A stretch of DNA of 32,368 nucleotides from an uncultured Elusimicrobiales bacterium (GTDB taxonomy: Bacteria > Elusimicrobiota > Elusimicrobia > Elusimicrobiales > Elusimicrobiaceae), in NCBI GenBank assembly GCA_944324735.1, contig CALUXL010000017.1, positions 1-32,368 on the forward strand. Direction: 5' to 3'. This document shows positions 15,822 through 23,992 of this stretch, in pieces (position 1 is the first letter of the stretch; each line of letters starts with the position of its first letter). A program made the position numbers and the translations under genes. Under the pieces are notes generated by a model. The model worked only from the letters and a program-made list of their open reading frames with translations, did no database searches and was not told where the DNA came from.

Positions 15822-16391
15822 GTGGAAAAAATAAAAATGTACGAAGCTTTTGTACCCAAAGAGATATTCCTTACCAAAGGAATCGGCAGACACAAAGAAA
15901 AACTGGCCAGCTTTGAAGAAGCGTTGAGAGACGCCAAAATTGCCAGCTTTAACTTAGTGCCTGTTTCCAGCATTTTCCCTCCCGGCTGCAAAACGGTACC
16001 TGTTGCTAAGGGCCTTAAAGAACTGCACTCGGGCCAAATTCTGCATTGCGTAATCAGCAGAAACACCAGCAACGAATACCGCCGCTTGATTTCCGCGTCC
16101 GTCGGTTTGGCTATTCCGAAAGAAGGCCAAAAAACCCACGGTTATATTTCGGAACATCACAGCTTTGGCGAAACGGACAAACAAGCCGGCGACTATGCCG
16201 AAGATTTGGCCGCCCTTATGCTTTCCACCACTTTGGGTATTGAGTTTGATAACAATACCACCTGGGACCAGAAAGAAGAAATCTGGCGCATGAGCGGCAA
16301 AATCGTCCGCACCACTAACATTACCCAATCCGCCATCTGCGTGGAAGGTATGTGGACCACCGTCGTCGCGGCTGCCGTATTTGTGAAATAA
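15822..16391 (+). CDS. Pyruvoyl-dependent arginine decarboxylase
   Basis: Decarboxylates arginine to agmatine using a pyruvoyl group made by self-cleavage, not PLP. 189 residues from the GTG at 15822, preceded by AGGA at 4 bases; an ATG at 15837 would give 184 residues and is also possible. The cleavage site is visible in NLVPVSSIFPPGC: Ser49-Ser50, where Ser50 would become the pyruvoyl group, as Ser53 does in the Methanocaldococcus jannaschii enzyme. The conserved GLAIP, HGYISEHH and final CVEGMWTTVVAAAVF also fit. The agmatinase gene follows after 16 bases, so the pair converts arginine to putrescine. The class was described in archaea and also occurs in scattered bacteria. Confidence 0.93.
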   Translation: MEKIKMYEAFVPKEIFLTKGIGRHKEKLASFEEALRDAKIASFNLVPVSSIFPPGCKTVPVAKGLKELHSGQILHCVISRNTSNEYRRLISASVGLAIPKEGQKTHGYISEHHSFGETDKQAGDYAEDLAALMLSTTLGIEFDNNTTWDQKEEIWRMSGKIVRTTNITQSAICVEGMWTTVVAAAVFVK

Positions 16392-16407
16392 TATCACCGG
16401 TAACATT

Positions 16408-17280
16408 GTGAGCGATAACGTACAAACTGATAAGTTTATGGGGCTAGAGAGCAAAAACAGCTCTCTGCCCCTTTGTAAATTTGCGGTAGTACCCGTTCCG
16501 TTTGAAAAAACGGTTTGTTACGGGCACGGCACCGCCAAAGGCCCCGCGGCCGTGATTGAAGCTTCCACCCAGATTGAACTTTGGGACGAAGAAACCAAAA
16601 CCGAAACCTGGGAACTGGGCATTCACACCTGCCCCGCGGTAAATTGCAAAGGCTCCACCAATACGGTTTTTAAAAATATTGATAAAACCGTGCGCAACCT
16701 GATGCAATACAAAGCCATTCCGTTTTATATCGGCGGGGAACACACGGTAACCCAAGCCTTGGCCCAGCCGTATATTGAAAAATATAAAGACTTGAGCATT
16801 CTGCACTTTGACGCCCATGCCGACTTGCGGGAAACCTTTGAAGGTACCCCCAAAAGCCACGCCTGCGCGTTATACCCGGCCAGCCGCCAGGTACCTGTGG
16901 TGCAGGTGGGGATTCGTTCCGTCGCCAGCGAAGAAAAGCAATACTGCAACGCCGGCAAAGTAACCACTTTTTTAATGCACGAAAACCGCGACATTAAAAA
17001 ATTGATCCCCCAAGTGCTTAAAAAATTAACAGATACGGTATACATCACCATTGACGTGGACGGGTTTGATCCCTCCGTCATCCCGGCTACGGGTACCCCG
17101 CAGCCCGGCGGTTTTATGTGGTATGAAGCGCTGGACTTGTTCCGCGAAGTCATTAAACACAAAAAAATCGTGGCGGTGGACGTGGTGGAAGCCTGCCAAA
17201 GAAAGGCAGACACTATTACGGAATTTAACGTATCTAAGTTAATTTACCGCTTAATGGGCTATTTGGCCGTAAAGAAATAA
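16408..17280 (+). CDS. speB: Agmatinase (ureohydrolase family)
   Basis: Manganese ureohydrolase, here most likely agmatine to putrescine plus urea. The 290 residues carry all metal ligands: His112 in GGEHT, Asp135/His137/Asp139 in DAHADLR, and Asp216/Asp218 in DVDGFDPS; SHA at 150-152 is also typical. The GTG at 16408 gives the full length; an ATG at 16438 is an alternative, and neither has a strong ribosome binding site. The pairing with pyruvoyl-dependent arginine decarboxylase decides for agmatinase over arginase or formimidoylglutamase. A strong terminator follows, so this is a complete two-gene operon. Confidence 0.93.
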   Translation: MSDNVQTDKFMGLESKNSSLPLCKFAVVPVPFEKTVCYGHGTAKGPAAVIEASTQIELWDEETKTETWELGIHTCPAVNCKGSTNTVFKNIDKTVRNLMQYKAIPFYIGGEHTVTQALAQPYIEKYKDLSILHFDAHADLRETFEGTPKSHACALYPASRQVPVVQVGIRSVASEEKQYCNAGKVTTFLMHENRDIKKLIPQVLKKLTDTVYITIDVDGFDPSVIPATGTPQPGGFMWYEALDLFREVIKHKKIVAVDVVEACQRKADTITEFNVSKLIYRLMGYLAVKK

Positions 17281-17357: not shown

Positions 17358-18077
17358 TTAAAATAAATACGCCACTTTTAATAGGGCGGAAATATAGCCG
17401 TGGCGCTCTTTGCCGCTGGCACCGGGCAGGCTGTATTTGGCATTGTTAAACCAAAACGCCTGGTAGCGCATCTCCAGCCCCCAGGCAAAGTGCTCGGCAA
17501 ATTGTTTTTCCATCCCGAAACCTAAATAATAGGCAAAAGAGGTATCTTTGCCGGTGTATCTTTCGTGATTATGCACGGCAGGAAACAAGTTGTTTTCGGT
17601 TACTTCCAACGTGGCTTTGCTGCGGGCAATACCCGCGCCAAAAGGCACGTAAAAGCGAAAACCACTCTGCGGGTTGAGCGTAAAACGCCCCGCCGCCATG
17701 ATATTGTGCACGTCCATGCGGGTGTCTATATCCCGCTCCCACACGCCAAACGGCGGCAAAAAAATGCCGCGGGTTTGGGTGGCATCATCAAAGAAATTGC
17801 CATTATACTCAAGCCCCAGCGCCCAGCGCGGCTGGAAATGATATAAATATTGAACCCCGTAGGAACCGGCCAGGTTGCCCCATTCCAAAGCGTCGTTACC
17901 ATCGGAAAGAGGGTCCGCCTGTTGTTCCGTAAGGCCGGAGTGACCCAGTGCAACGGCTCCTCCCAAAAACACGCTTACAGATTATTTGGGAGCGGCTATT
18001 GCCTGCGCCTGTACGGGGGCAATATAAGATACTCCTAACAGCATCGCCACTAGGGCGGTGAACAGTTGTTTTTTCAT
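17358..18077 (-). pseudogene. Outer-membrane beta-barrel protein gene, interrupted by a stop codon
   Basis: A complete 240-codon frame from the ATG at 18075-18077 (GGAG ribosome binding site 9 bases before) to the stop at 17358, broken only by TAA at 17982-17984, codon 32. Codons 1-31 encode a signal peptide (LFTALVAMLLGVSYIAPVQA...); after the stop the frame continues SVSVFLGGAVALG and an amphipathic beta-strand series ending HGYISALLKVAYLF with the C-terminal Phe of outer-membrane proteins. That end resembles YHYLSALLKIGCRF of the barrel gene at 23339. A single C-to-T change (CAA to TAA) would explain it. A GTG at codon 36 could restart translation, but the product would lack export. Confidence 0.8.
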
Positions 18078-18187
18078 ACGTTTATTCTCCATGTCTACAC
18101 GAGTTGCTTTTTACATAAACGGCCCGTGCCCATAGACGGGCCCGGATGACTATGCAAAACGGTTTGGGGAAGCGTAATCTCCCCAAT
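18078..18187 (-). other. Upstream region of the barrel pseudogene with GC-rich hairpin
   Basis: GGCCCGT (18121-18127) pairs perfectly with ACGGGCC (18136-18142) around an 8-base loop, in the probable 5' region of the barrel gene. There is no U tract, so it is not a plain terminator; a leader structure is possible. I cannot place a convincing promoter. Confidence 0.3.
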
Positions 18188-18214
18188 AAAAAAACCCGTC
18201 AAAAGACGGGTTTT
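18188..18214 (-). terminator. Intrinsic terminator of the ankyrin lipoprotein gene
   Basis: AAAACCCGTC / GACGGGTTTT (18191-18200 with 18205-18214), a 10-bp stem with a four-base loop and A7 on the left, giving a U tract on the minus strand. It comes 5 bases after the stop codon. Confidence 0.88.
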
Positions 18215-18219
18215 AAATT

Positions 18220-19122
18220 TTATAACTTCGGGCACGGCACGGTGGAACCATCCGCCTTGCGGATAAAACATTCCCCCCGCCCGGCGCGCTTACGGGCAGC
18301 GGCTTTTTTGCGGGCCAGCAGGGCGGCATACTCCTCTACCCGGATTCTTTCCTCTTCCGCCACCAGTTTATCGGCCAACTCCTTCTGGCCGGATTTTAAA
18401 GCATAATAAGAGGCAGTATAGCCGTCTTTATCACGCTGGGTGGCATTGGCCCCTAACAAAAGCAAACTGGCGGCCAGTTTTTCTTTCCCCCGTTTTACAG
18501 CTACCAGCAAGGGGGCGTCTTCGTCACTATTGGGGCAGCCGTTAATGGGTAAAATATTGCGAATTAAAAGTGAATCCACCACCGTTTGGTTCTGGCTTAC
18601 ATAGGCCGCCGGCCAAAAACAACGGGAAGCAAAATCTGGAAAGGTTTGCGCTTTTTGCAGGAAATACTCAATCGACATTTCATTGGGATTATACGCAATC
18701 GCCCCGGATAAAGCCTGGTAAACTTCCTCGGCCTGGGCGTCGCCCGGTATTAAAAAGCGCACCAAATCCGGCGTCATCGTGCCGGCATACGCAATCCACA
18801 AGGGGCGGCCGTCTTTGCTTAAATCTTTACCGCTGGCACCGTGCTGTAATAAAAATTTTACACTGCGGTCATTATTTACCTGCAGGGCCACTTCCAACGG
18901 GCTTAACCCGGCGGAATTTAGTTCGTGCGGGTCGGCTCCTTGGTCAATTAAAATTTGCATCCAGGGTACATTGCCGGACGCGGCCGCATCATGTAAAGAC
19001 AACGCAGTTGAACTCTCCCCTTCCGAAGCCGTGCTTTGCGGGTTCTGCTGCATGGGAGTATCGGACTTGCCACACCCCACAGCAACCAGTAAACATAAAA
19101 TAAAAAAGAATGTGCGTTTCAT
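18220..19122 (-). CDS. Ankyrin-repeat lipoprotein
   Basis: A 300-residue lipoprotein with signal peptide and lipobox VAVGC (Cys at about residue 17). Residues about 42-110 are ankyrin repeats (LSLHDAAASGNVPWMQILIDQGADPHELNSAGLSPLEVAL...), with another at about 205-255 (APLLVAVKRGKEKLAASLLLLGANATQRDKDGYTASYYAL). Between them is a diverged region that may hold degenerate repeats. The last 45 residues form a charged helix (Glu/Arg/Ala) and a tail with two Cys (GECFIRKADGS...PCPKL). Ankyrin repeats mediate protein contacts; a surface or periplasmic binding role is likely, the partner unknown. It stands alone, between two terminators. Confidence 0.85.
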   Translation of the reverse strand: MKRTFFFILCLLVAVGCGKSDTPMQQNPQSTASEGESSTALSLHDAAASGNVPWMQILIDQGADPHELNSAGLSPLEVALQVNNDRSVKFLLQHGASGKDLSKDGRPLWIAYAGTMTPDLVRFLIPGDAQAEEVYQALSGAIAYNPNEMSIEYFLQKAQTFPDFASRCFWPAAYVSQNQTVVDSLLIRNILPINGCPNSDEDAPLLVAVKRGKEKLAASLLLLGANATQRDKDGYTASYYALKSGQKELADKLVAEEERIRVEEYAALLARKKAAARKRAGRGECFIRKADGSTVPCPKL

Positions 19123-19201: not shown

Positions 19202-20386
19202 TTACAGCGGAGGGAGCGGCCCGGGATTGCCGCCCTGCGGCAATGTATAGGGCTCTTTTAATAGAGATTTGGCTAAATCGTCAAACCCCCATTTATCTTT
19301 AAACGATAAAACATATTTATATTGTTTCACCGCCAAATCACGCTCGCCCAATAAATCATACACCTGCCCCAGGCGCAGCTCGTTCCATAGTCCCCAACGG
19401 CTGACGGCCTGGTCTTTAAGCGCCTGGCGCCCTTGTTCAAACAAGGTACGCGCGCCCGCTATATCCCCCCGTGCCATGGCCGCCGTGCCTAAAGCAGTAT
19501 ACGCGCGGGAAATATAAATATCTTTATAAAACGGGTCCGTACCAATTAATTTTAAAAATTGGTTAGCCTGTTGGGTTACTTCGTCCAAGTTACCGGTTTC
19601 GTACAGGCAGATAATCTCCACATAGTGCATGAGCGGGTTATTGGGGTATTTGGCGCGCAGTTCGCGTATATATTCCAACGATTTTTGCGGATTATAATAT
19701 TTGCTGTCACGCACGTTTTGGATTTCAATTAAAATCAGTTTGGAACTGTCGGCCGTGAACATGGCCTTTTCACGCGAAAGGTTAAGCTGTTTTACCCCCT
19801 CGTCCGGGTTGCCTTTAATGGCCACAATTTTAGCCAATATTTTGATGACGGACGGCAAGGTTCCCGCGTAATACTGGTAAATACCCAGGCCAAAGTAAGC
19901 ATCGTAATAAGTGGGGTCCAACTCCAGGGATTTTTCCAAATTGGAAATGGCTTTGCGGCCGGAGAAATAGGCCGTTATCCAGCTGCGGTTGCGCATGCTG
20001 AACATGGCGCGCAGCCCATACAAAGCGCCAATACCCATATAGGCGTTGGGGTCATCGGGATGTTGTTTCATCCAGCGTTTAATGCCGGAGATGGAATCAT
20101 CCAAAATCTGTTCAAAAACTTTTTGTTGTTTTTCGTCGCTTTTTTCAAACTCGTATTCATAGCGGGACCAGGCAATCATCGCATTGCCAAAATGGGCAAA
20201 GGGATGATCGGGGTATTGGTCAAACACTTTTTGAATATTTTTTTGGGCGACGTCAAAATCCAGGCTATACACGCCGTTAATGCCTTCGCGCGCCTGGGCC
20301 ATTACATCGGGCGGAAGTTGAATTTCCGCATAAGACGGGGCGGCCAGTAACGCCGCCCCCACAAAACCAGCCAGCCACTTGCGCAT
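19202..20386 (-). CDS. Exported TPR-repeat protein
   Basis: A 394-residue protein with a signal peptide (AGFVGAALLAAPSYA, cleavage near residue 20) and TPR-like helical pairs over most of its length, for example LDFDVAQKNIQKVFDQYPDHP, AISNLEKSLELDPTYYDAYFGLG, ARTLFEQGRQALKD and DLLGERDLAVKQYKYVLS. The C-terminus is Gly/Pro-rich (GGNPGPLPPL). It starts one base inside the serS stop (TAATG), so translation is coupled; GAGG lies 11 bases upstream. Periplasmic TPR proteins act as scaffolds in envelope assembly; no more specific role can be read. It differs from the other TPR protein in the window in having repeats to the end. Confidence 0.85.
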   Translation of the reverse strand: MRKWLAGFVGAALLAAPSYAEIQLPPDVMAQAREGINGVYSLDFDVAQKNIQKVFDQYPDHPFAHFGNAMIAWSRYEYEFEKSDEKQQKVFEQILDDSISGIKRWMKQHPDDPNAYMGIGALYGLRAMFSMRNRSWITAYFSGRKAISNLEKSLELDPTYYDAYFGLGIYQYYAGTLPSVIKILAKIVAIKGNPDEGVKQLNLSREKAMFTADSSKLILIEIQNVRDSKYYNPQKSLEYIRELRAKYPNNPLMHYVEIICLYETGNLDEVTQQANQFLKLIGTDPFYKDIYISRAYTALGTAAMARGDIAGARTLFEQGRQALKDQAVSRWGLWNELRLGQVYDLLGERDLAVKQYKYVLSFKDKWGFDDLAKSLLKEPYTLPQGGNPGPLPPL

Positions 20387-23338: not shown

Positions 23339-23992
23339 ATGAAAAAACTCATTTTGCTGTGTGCTGTATTAATGGTAGCGCCGCTTTCGGCCATGGCCAA
23401 AGACGCTTACCACGATTATTACGGCCTGGAAGAATATGGCCTGCGCAATAATACCACCCGCGTGGAATTTTACGGCGGTGTGGCGGAACCCCAAAGCAAC
23501 TGGACCCACAACGGGCAGGAAGTGGAAATCGGCAAGACTGGTTTCTCCGCCGGGTTGGCTTTCCTGCGCAACATTGGGCCTTTCTTCACCTTGGGGCTGG
23601 ACGGCAACTACGCCGGTTTTGCCAGCGGCGATAAATTCAACGCCGGCACCCAAAAAGCCAAATACACCTCCGGCATTGCCACGGGGTTATTAATTGGGCG
23701 TTTTAACTTTTTCCCTTCTCAACCCACCCGCTTTTATGTAACTTCCGGTTTGGGTATTGGGCATATGTTCTCCCGCGAAAAATTTGACGACGGCACCCAC
23801 GATACCGTAAACAGCACCAGCTGGGCCGGTATGCTTGGCGCCGGGGTGGAATTTGACGTAGACGATACCGTCATCTTTGGCGTGGAAGGACGCTATAACT
23901 TGGTAGACTTAGACGGCGATTATCAAGACGCTTTAGGCAAAGGCCGCTATCACTATTTAAGCGCTTTGTTAAAAATCGGCTGCCGCTTCTAA
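23339..23992 (+). CDS. Outer-membrane beta-barrel protein (OmpW/OprF-like size class)
   Basis: 217 residues with signal peptide (LILLCAVLMVAPLSAMA, cut near residue 20). The mature part is a series of amphipathic beta strands rich in Gly, Tyr and Phe, such as GFSAGLAFLRNIGPFFTLGLDGNY and FYVTSGLGIGHMF, ending YHYLSALLKIGCRF with a C-terminal Phe that fits the BAM recognition signal. Eight strands are likely from the length. Its end resembles that of the broken barrel gene at 17358-18077, so the two are paralogues, and this one may be the surviving copy. A strong ribosome binding site AAAGGAG precedes the ATG. Exact function unknown. Confidence 0.85.
   Translation: MKKLILLCAVLMVAPLSAMAKDAYHDYYGLEEYGLRNNTTRVEFYGGVAEPQSNWTHNGQEVEIGKTGFSAGLAFLRNIGPFFTLGLDGNYAGFASGDKFNAGTQKAKYTSGIATGLLIGRFNFFPSQPTRFYVTSGLGIGHMFSREKFDDGTHDTVNSTSWAGMLGAGVEFDVDDTVIFGVEGRYNLVDLDGDYQDALGKGRYHYLSALLKIGCRF

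Follow-up and report, generated by a model that had tools for sequence, protein, structure and literature searches.

Signs of recurrent inactivation at the locus of a predicted outer-membrane β-barrel in a clade of uncultured Elusimicrobiota

We report that a gene for a predicted outer-membrane β-barrel, interrupted by an in-frame TAA in the genome of an uncultured Elusimicrobiota bacterium, lies at a locus that appears to have been inactivated recurrently and independently in its relatives, and not through an isolated accident. Taken together, the data favor a selective process that has acted repeatedly. The window that we analyzed (the whole stretch of 32,368 nucleotides) forms contig 17 of a metagenome-type draft genome that totals 1.57 Mb in 155 contigs and is 87% complete, and the barrel gene sits 14–17 kb from both contig ends. 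A single premature stop in a draft assembly would ordinarily be disregarded, and the recurrence of loss across the genus is not visible from the window sequence alone; a repeated pattern emerges on comparison with a genus-level set of 66 genomes, from a group whose habitat we take to be the gut.

The barrel gene opens with an ATG at 18077 on the minus strand, which is followed by the signal sequence MKKQLFTALVAMLLGVSYIAPVQAQAIAAPK, with a signal peptide of ∼25 residues (coordinates of the features are given in Table 1). Codon 32 is TAA, in the context CCCAAATAATCT and outside any repeat, and 207 sense codons then lead to the terminal TAA at 17358–17360. This confirms the preliminary description, which had the gene split by the TAA between a signal in codons 1–31 and 207 open codons. 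The remainder is intact, as it had also stated: ribosome binding site, signal, barrel strands and terminal LF are all present, and the body in the window carries no further lesion. We looked for a downstream frame with its own start and its own signal, which the same description had named as evidence against a loss, and found none among the in-frame starts after the TAA; the single long one (GTG at 17972) has neither a signal peptide nor a ribosome-binding site.

Table 1. Features of the barrel locus and its surroundings in the window
Feature	Position	Strand	Basis
Agmatinase/arginase-family gene, convergent flank of the slot, conserved	16408..17280	+	
Outer-membrane β-barrel gene (whole), in-frame TAA inside	17358..18077	-	reading-frame and profile analysis
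Open body, 207 codons plus TAA, 8-stranded barrel, PF13505	17358..17981	-	profile, alignment, structure model
TAA, codon 32; Gln/Glu codons in relatives	17982..17984	-	relatives' codons compared
Codons 1-31, start codon and Sec-type signal peptide	17985..18077	-	by eye and homology to intact copies
GGAG, ribosome-binding-like site	18087..18090	-	sequence
Terminator-like hairpin, between ankyrin and barrel genes	18191..18214	-	consensus match only
Ankyrin-repeat lipoprotein-like gene, part of the hypervariable island	18220..19122	-	
TPR-repeat gene, opposite flank of the slot, conserved	19202..20386	-	
Second, distant barrel, intact in all complete orthologues	23339..23992	+	

The part of the gene behind the stop matches PF13505 (OMP_b-brl) at 43.0 bits, above the cut-off of 28.7, and aligns with four near-orthologues at 67–73% identity. 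An AlphaFold2 model computed from a 24-row alignment has a mean pLDDT of 91.8 and shows nine strand segments, which we interpret as eight barrel strands, one of them interrupted; the C terminus ends in LF. Together, the sequence and the model thus provide the signal peptide, the eight antiparallel strands and the C-terminal Phe of an 8-stranded outer-membrane barrel. The profile score, the identity to near-orthologues and the confidently modeled barrel fold take the open frame beyond chance, and the product is predicted to be a surface molecule. The best structural matches in the PDB are OmpA, Legionella porin III, Ail, OmpX and NspA, with query TM-scores of 0.41–0.68, whereas a sequence search of solved-structure chains returned no relative at E ≤ 0.1. 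The protein thus shares a Pfam family and a barrel model with the small 8-stranded barrels of PF13505 (OmpA transmembrane domain, OmpX/Ail, NspA), but without sequence kinship to solved chains and at TM-scores of 0.4–0.68 their function is not transferable.

The gene occupies a slot flanked on one side by paired genes for a pyruvoyl arginine decarboxylase and an agmatinase and on the other by a TPR gene paired with serS, an arrangement that is syntenic across the genus. Because the terminator-like hairpin lies ahead of the barrel, the gene is probably transcribed on its own. No sigma-70-like promoter was found upstream of the barrel, where the consensus says little for such organisms.

To the clade of the window belong G000 (the window genome), G041 (two contigs, with haplotypes a and b), G052, G002 and G064, each genome being one consensus per species. 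At the position of the TAA, G041a, G002 and G064 encode Gln, and G041b and G052 encode Glu. As all five other near-orthologous copies have a sense codon here, the TAA can be read as a nonsense lesion, and since the body is undamaged and constrained (see below), the proposal of a recent nonsense loss holds. The window gene is best explained as a recent OFF allele, which would have arisen by a nonsense codon at the signal/mature junction. The preliminary description had also allowed for suppression of the stop. Readthrough of the TAA, with the barrel being made, would fit the constraint on the body, but we give it hardly any credence: no UUA anticodon occurs among 37 tRNA genes (RF00005 matches in the 87%-complete genome, all typed with ARAGORN), TAA is the common stop and terminates 24 of the 32 ORFs in the window, and the lesions of the relatives differ in kind and place, with nothing programmed about them. 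The last point rules out programmed frameshifting or readthrough.

Each of the four sister lineages carries its own, different 5′ lesion in the same slot, in the form of frameshifts in or near homopolymers. The start codon of G041a is out of frame with the signal peptide across the A-run that follows the start. G041b and G052 retain the signal peptide, and their frame shifts at an Asp-Trp-Gly G-run near codon 66. The frame of G002 shifts within a T/G run at the first strand, and G064 has two lesions, which affect the signal peptide and the first strand. Six of the seven slot copies in the five-genome clade are broken; G064 holds an additional, distant slot copy that is intact and 36% identical. 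Within the body, no second lesion was found in the clade lineages. The copies of G002 and both copies of G041 lie near contig ends and call for caution, from which G000, G064 and G052 are free. The two G041 contigs, C22 (L037) and C12 (L038), represent divergent haplotypes that are both broken and that each end beside the barrel gene, and the G002 contig also breaks between the ankyrin and barrel genes. These contig breaks and the two G041 haplotypes suggest strain variation at the site.

The draft, metagenome-type nature of the assembly, with its 155 contigs and 87% completeness, would be in keeping with an assembly or sequencing error at one base as the source of the TAA. We regard such an error as very improbable, for the neighboring genes are intact, the gene lies mid-contig, the sister genomes carry independent lesions, one of them present in two separate assemblies, and a substitution that gives TAA is atypical of homopolymer error.

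A test of start, signal and reading frame across the genus scored 30 slot copies as intact and 11 as broken (n = 41). The broken copies are the six from the clade and G060B, G061B, G008 (where the start codon is substituted to ATA), G049 and G059 (internal); outside the clade, 29 of 34 copies are intact and 5 are broken. The M3 peptidase, arginine decarboxylase, agmatinase, ankyrin, TPR, serS and 23339 barrel genes from the same stretches served as controls. By a test that required an ORF length of at least 93% of the query, and that is laxer on starts than the slot test, 212 of 214 complete control copies were intact and 2 broken, with 20 copies cut by stretch ends left out. The Fisher p value for slot versus control breakage is 3e-8, or 2e-7 with G041b and G052 counted as one, and both values are indications only, as they assume that related genomes are independent. 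Sequencing error, which the preliminary description had listed as well, is unlikely at the level of the family given two broken copies in 214 controls. The two controls scored as broken, which may be genuine lesions or assembly errors, are the agmatinase in G037 (L068) and the M3 peptidase in G031 (L059). The barrel at 23339, which had been called a paralogue that might make the loss tolerable, does exist as a second barrel, but it is distant (31% identical to the interrupted barrel over the aligned part), sits at a separate conserved locus and is intact in 23 of 23 complete copies.

The five clade genomes contain 37 PF13505 matches, 7 in the slot and 30 elsewhere, and of the latter 28 are intact, one is cut by a contig end and one is a doubtful sub-threshold match. 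We examined 68 non-slot family members in the genus. With one that is cut by a stretch end set aside, 67 are left, of which 6 are broken (G047:C51, G013:C49, G051:C18, G044:C1, G008:C27 and G062:C3), a rate that is biased, since G044:C1 and G008:C27 were picked for short-looking open frames. Slot and non-slot breakage differ at p = 0.03. The start/signal test had flagged 12 of 48 non-slot copies; on re-reading, 8 were intact (ATG and signal present, the SD motif alone missing), 3 broken and 1 cut by an end.

The lesions are not spread evenly along the gene. Eight of 11 distinct slot lesions fall within the first 40 of ∼240 codons (p = 6e-5, positions assigned by eye). An early block may be preferred, since an exported but truncated barrel could be harmful. 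Among 14 frameshifts with clear sites in the family (G049, G059 and the signal-peptide change of G008:C27 being left out), 12 coincide with or adjoin a run of 6–8 equal bases. In a paralogous group, the Trp-Gly tract could be located in 25 of 32 loci. Twenty-one of these have a run of G4 or G6 and keep the frame at the tract, three have G7 or G8 and change frame at that point, and one is without a run. The Trp-Gly G-run of G044:C1 (L208), G008:C27 (L209) and G013:C49 (L195) is a candidate slippage tract.

These tracts bear on programmed phase variation, by which reversible slipped-strand mispairing in short homopolymers (the A-run after the ATG and the Asp-Trp-Gly G-run) would switch the gene and the stop in the window would be an extra lesion. 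The association of frameshifts with runs and the in-frame and frame-changed lengths of the Trp-Gly tract speak for such switching, as do runs of six or more G or C in the first 210 bases, which are slightly more frequent in slot barrels (0.81 per kb) than in controls (0–0.63). We nevertheless judge it improbable. The window TAA lies in no repeat, the start codon of G008 was lost by substitution, two of the three G7/G8 copies also carry another frameshift, and the tracts are short. Runs of six or more A or T are no denser in slot barrels (1.73 per kb) than in control genes (1.16–4.76), which rules out denser homopolymers as the sole cause. With run densities near the control level, hypermutability alone is probably insufficient, and selection or tolerance would have to contribute; slot barrels have an excess of lesions over controls, yet their run density is little raised, and the excess may reflect mutability, selection or both. 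A search for a switch element (repeat or invertible DNA) at the window lesion found none, whereas homopolymers do occur at lesions elsewhere in the family. As the repeat element fails at the lesion, the sequence gives us no ground to file the window gene as phase-variable. The earlier suggestion of phase-like on/off variation stands in so far as broken copies occur in all sister lineages, though not for the TAA of the window itself.

We next consider constraint on the body. Pairs that include the window have a dN/dS (NG86) of 0.11–0.17, the G000–G041a pair being synonymously saturated. The value is 0.072 between G002 and G064, both of which are broken (39 synonymous and 13 non-synonymous changes), and 0.07–0.15 between slot-A copies outside the clade. 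The bodies of G041b and G052 differ by only three changes, so their dN/dS of 0.54 is uninformative. The low values indicate that, until very recently, the body was evolving like that of a functional protein, and the window gene shows neither the relaxed constraint nor the body lesions of a decaying pseudogene.

One-way pseudogenization, in which the barrel would be redundant in the clade, each lineage would have broken it once at random and decay would lie ahead, seems to us rather unlikely. It can draw on the fact that all sister lineages are broken and that the clade near-orthologues include no intact copy, on the two lesions of G064 and on the other barrels present in each genome, and lineage-specific decay of a surface gene is described for Campylobacter capC in the consulted part of a published report (PMC7168839). 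Against it, the body dN/dS of 0.07–0.17 is as low as that of intact copies, the clade bodies lack a second lesion, the lesions are skewed to the 5′ end, most copies elsewhere in the genus are intact (29 of 34), and recent independent loss would be needed in all lineages.

The barrel and ankyrin genes (17358–19122) form a sharply bounded hypervariable island with conserved neighbors on either side. DNA identity between G000 and G052 drops from 0.90–0.96 to 0.68–0.83 within the ankyrin and barrel genes and recovers to 0.95–0.98 in the agmatinase. In the same pair, dS is 0.20 for the agmatinase, 0.21 for the M3 peptidase, 0.32 for serS, 0.42 for the TPR gene and 0.56 for the barrel at 23339, and within the island it reaches 1.08 for the ankyrin gene and 1.50 for the interrupted barrel. 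Among the regions searched, only those of the window's clade contain the ankyrin gene. G041b and G052 have one broken allele in common, on a tract of at least 1.35 kb with 99–100% identity per 150-base bin, while their identity outside this tract is 0.80–0.98. The tract would represent the transfer of an already broken allele. The G041 contig C12 (G041b) could instead join sequence from two strains as a chimera; in both cases, assemblies of two samples contain the same lesion. Extracellular loops are more variable than other positions among the clade alleles (48/76 versus 50/125, p = 0.002, with loop limits set by hand from the structure model).

We consider it moderately likely that the gene encodes a surface-exposed barrel under fluctuating selection, that small mutations inactivate this gene recurrently, and that selection and allelic exchange preserve it in the long run. 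The long-term state of the gene would be functional, as suggested by its low dN/dS, its fixed place in the genome and its intact signal peptide and body. Populations would lose the barrel repeatedly through single small mutations near the 5′ end, which would be a nonsense change in the window, frameshifts in the sister lineages and a lost start codon further out. From the window allele, no barrel would reach the membrane. Loss may be favored at times when the exposed loops are a liability, as a phage receptor or a host-immune target, and function could return through allelic exchange or through back-mutation in single-base runs, so that ON and OFF alleles may coexist. The two lesions of G064, which point towards decay, count against fluctuating selection, as does the absence of a long homopolymer at the window lesion, long homopolymers being the usual engine of switching. 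More tentatively, the small outer-membrane barrels of this genus might form an ON/OFF system that operates without long repeats, through recurrent hits in short homopolymers and codons before or at the first strands (the A-run behind the start codon, a G-rich first strand and the Asp-Trp-Gly G-run) that spare the body, with OFF alleles recombined between species and most of the sampled populations of the window's clade OFF; we hold this to be possible and short of likely.

Several known systems resemble the barrel locus in part. According to the consulted text of Bayliss et al. (PMC11868660), phase variation demands reversible, high-frequency switching, contingency loci are defined more loosely, and "mutation-prone adaptive variation" is used where reversal has not been shown, as for homopolymer indels of Mycobacterium tuberculosis. 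The barrel resembles the phase variation and contingency loci treated there in being a predicted surface protein with putative ON/OFF small mutations, some of them in homopolymers. It differs from them in that the window lesion is a nonsense codon outside a repeat and the tracts of the family are short (6–8). With mutation-prone adaptive variation it has in common a gene-specific excess of loss-of-function changes, many at homopolymers, but the barrel losses are seen between species and not within a population, together with a recombination-like hypervariable island. Frameshifted genes at homopolymers are discussed in the consulted text of PMC3711429, which names surface proteins among phase-variable genes. 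The Campylobacter autotransporter genes capC and capD, as presented in the excerpted text of PMC7168839, are likewise surface genes, intact in some lineages and disrupted by stops and frameshifts in others; progressive decay is described there, whereas the body of the barrel is constrained and otherwise undamaged. A literature search of titles and abstract openings returned no report of the barrel gene or of phase variation in Elusimicrobiota.

A conserved surface protein that is inactivated in every sister lineage while its body is still under selection points to strong fluctuating selection on the surface, by phage or host, in an uncultured gut group. Annotation pipelines will label such genes pseudogenes or split ORFs and thereby hide the signal. 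The loci named here are specific ones whose ON/OFF ratio is readable from existing metagenome reads.

Two observations concern the flanks of the slot. Close to its 3′ end, the TPR gene of G022 (L075) gives two matches that overlap but differ in register, which may mark a frameshift on which the length test is silent. The pyruvoyl-dependent arginine decarboxylase and the arginase-family gene lie side by side at 15822–17280, are conserved throughout the genus and are likely an agmatine/polyamine pair.
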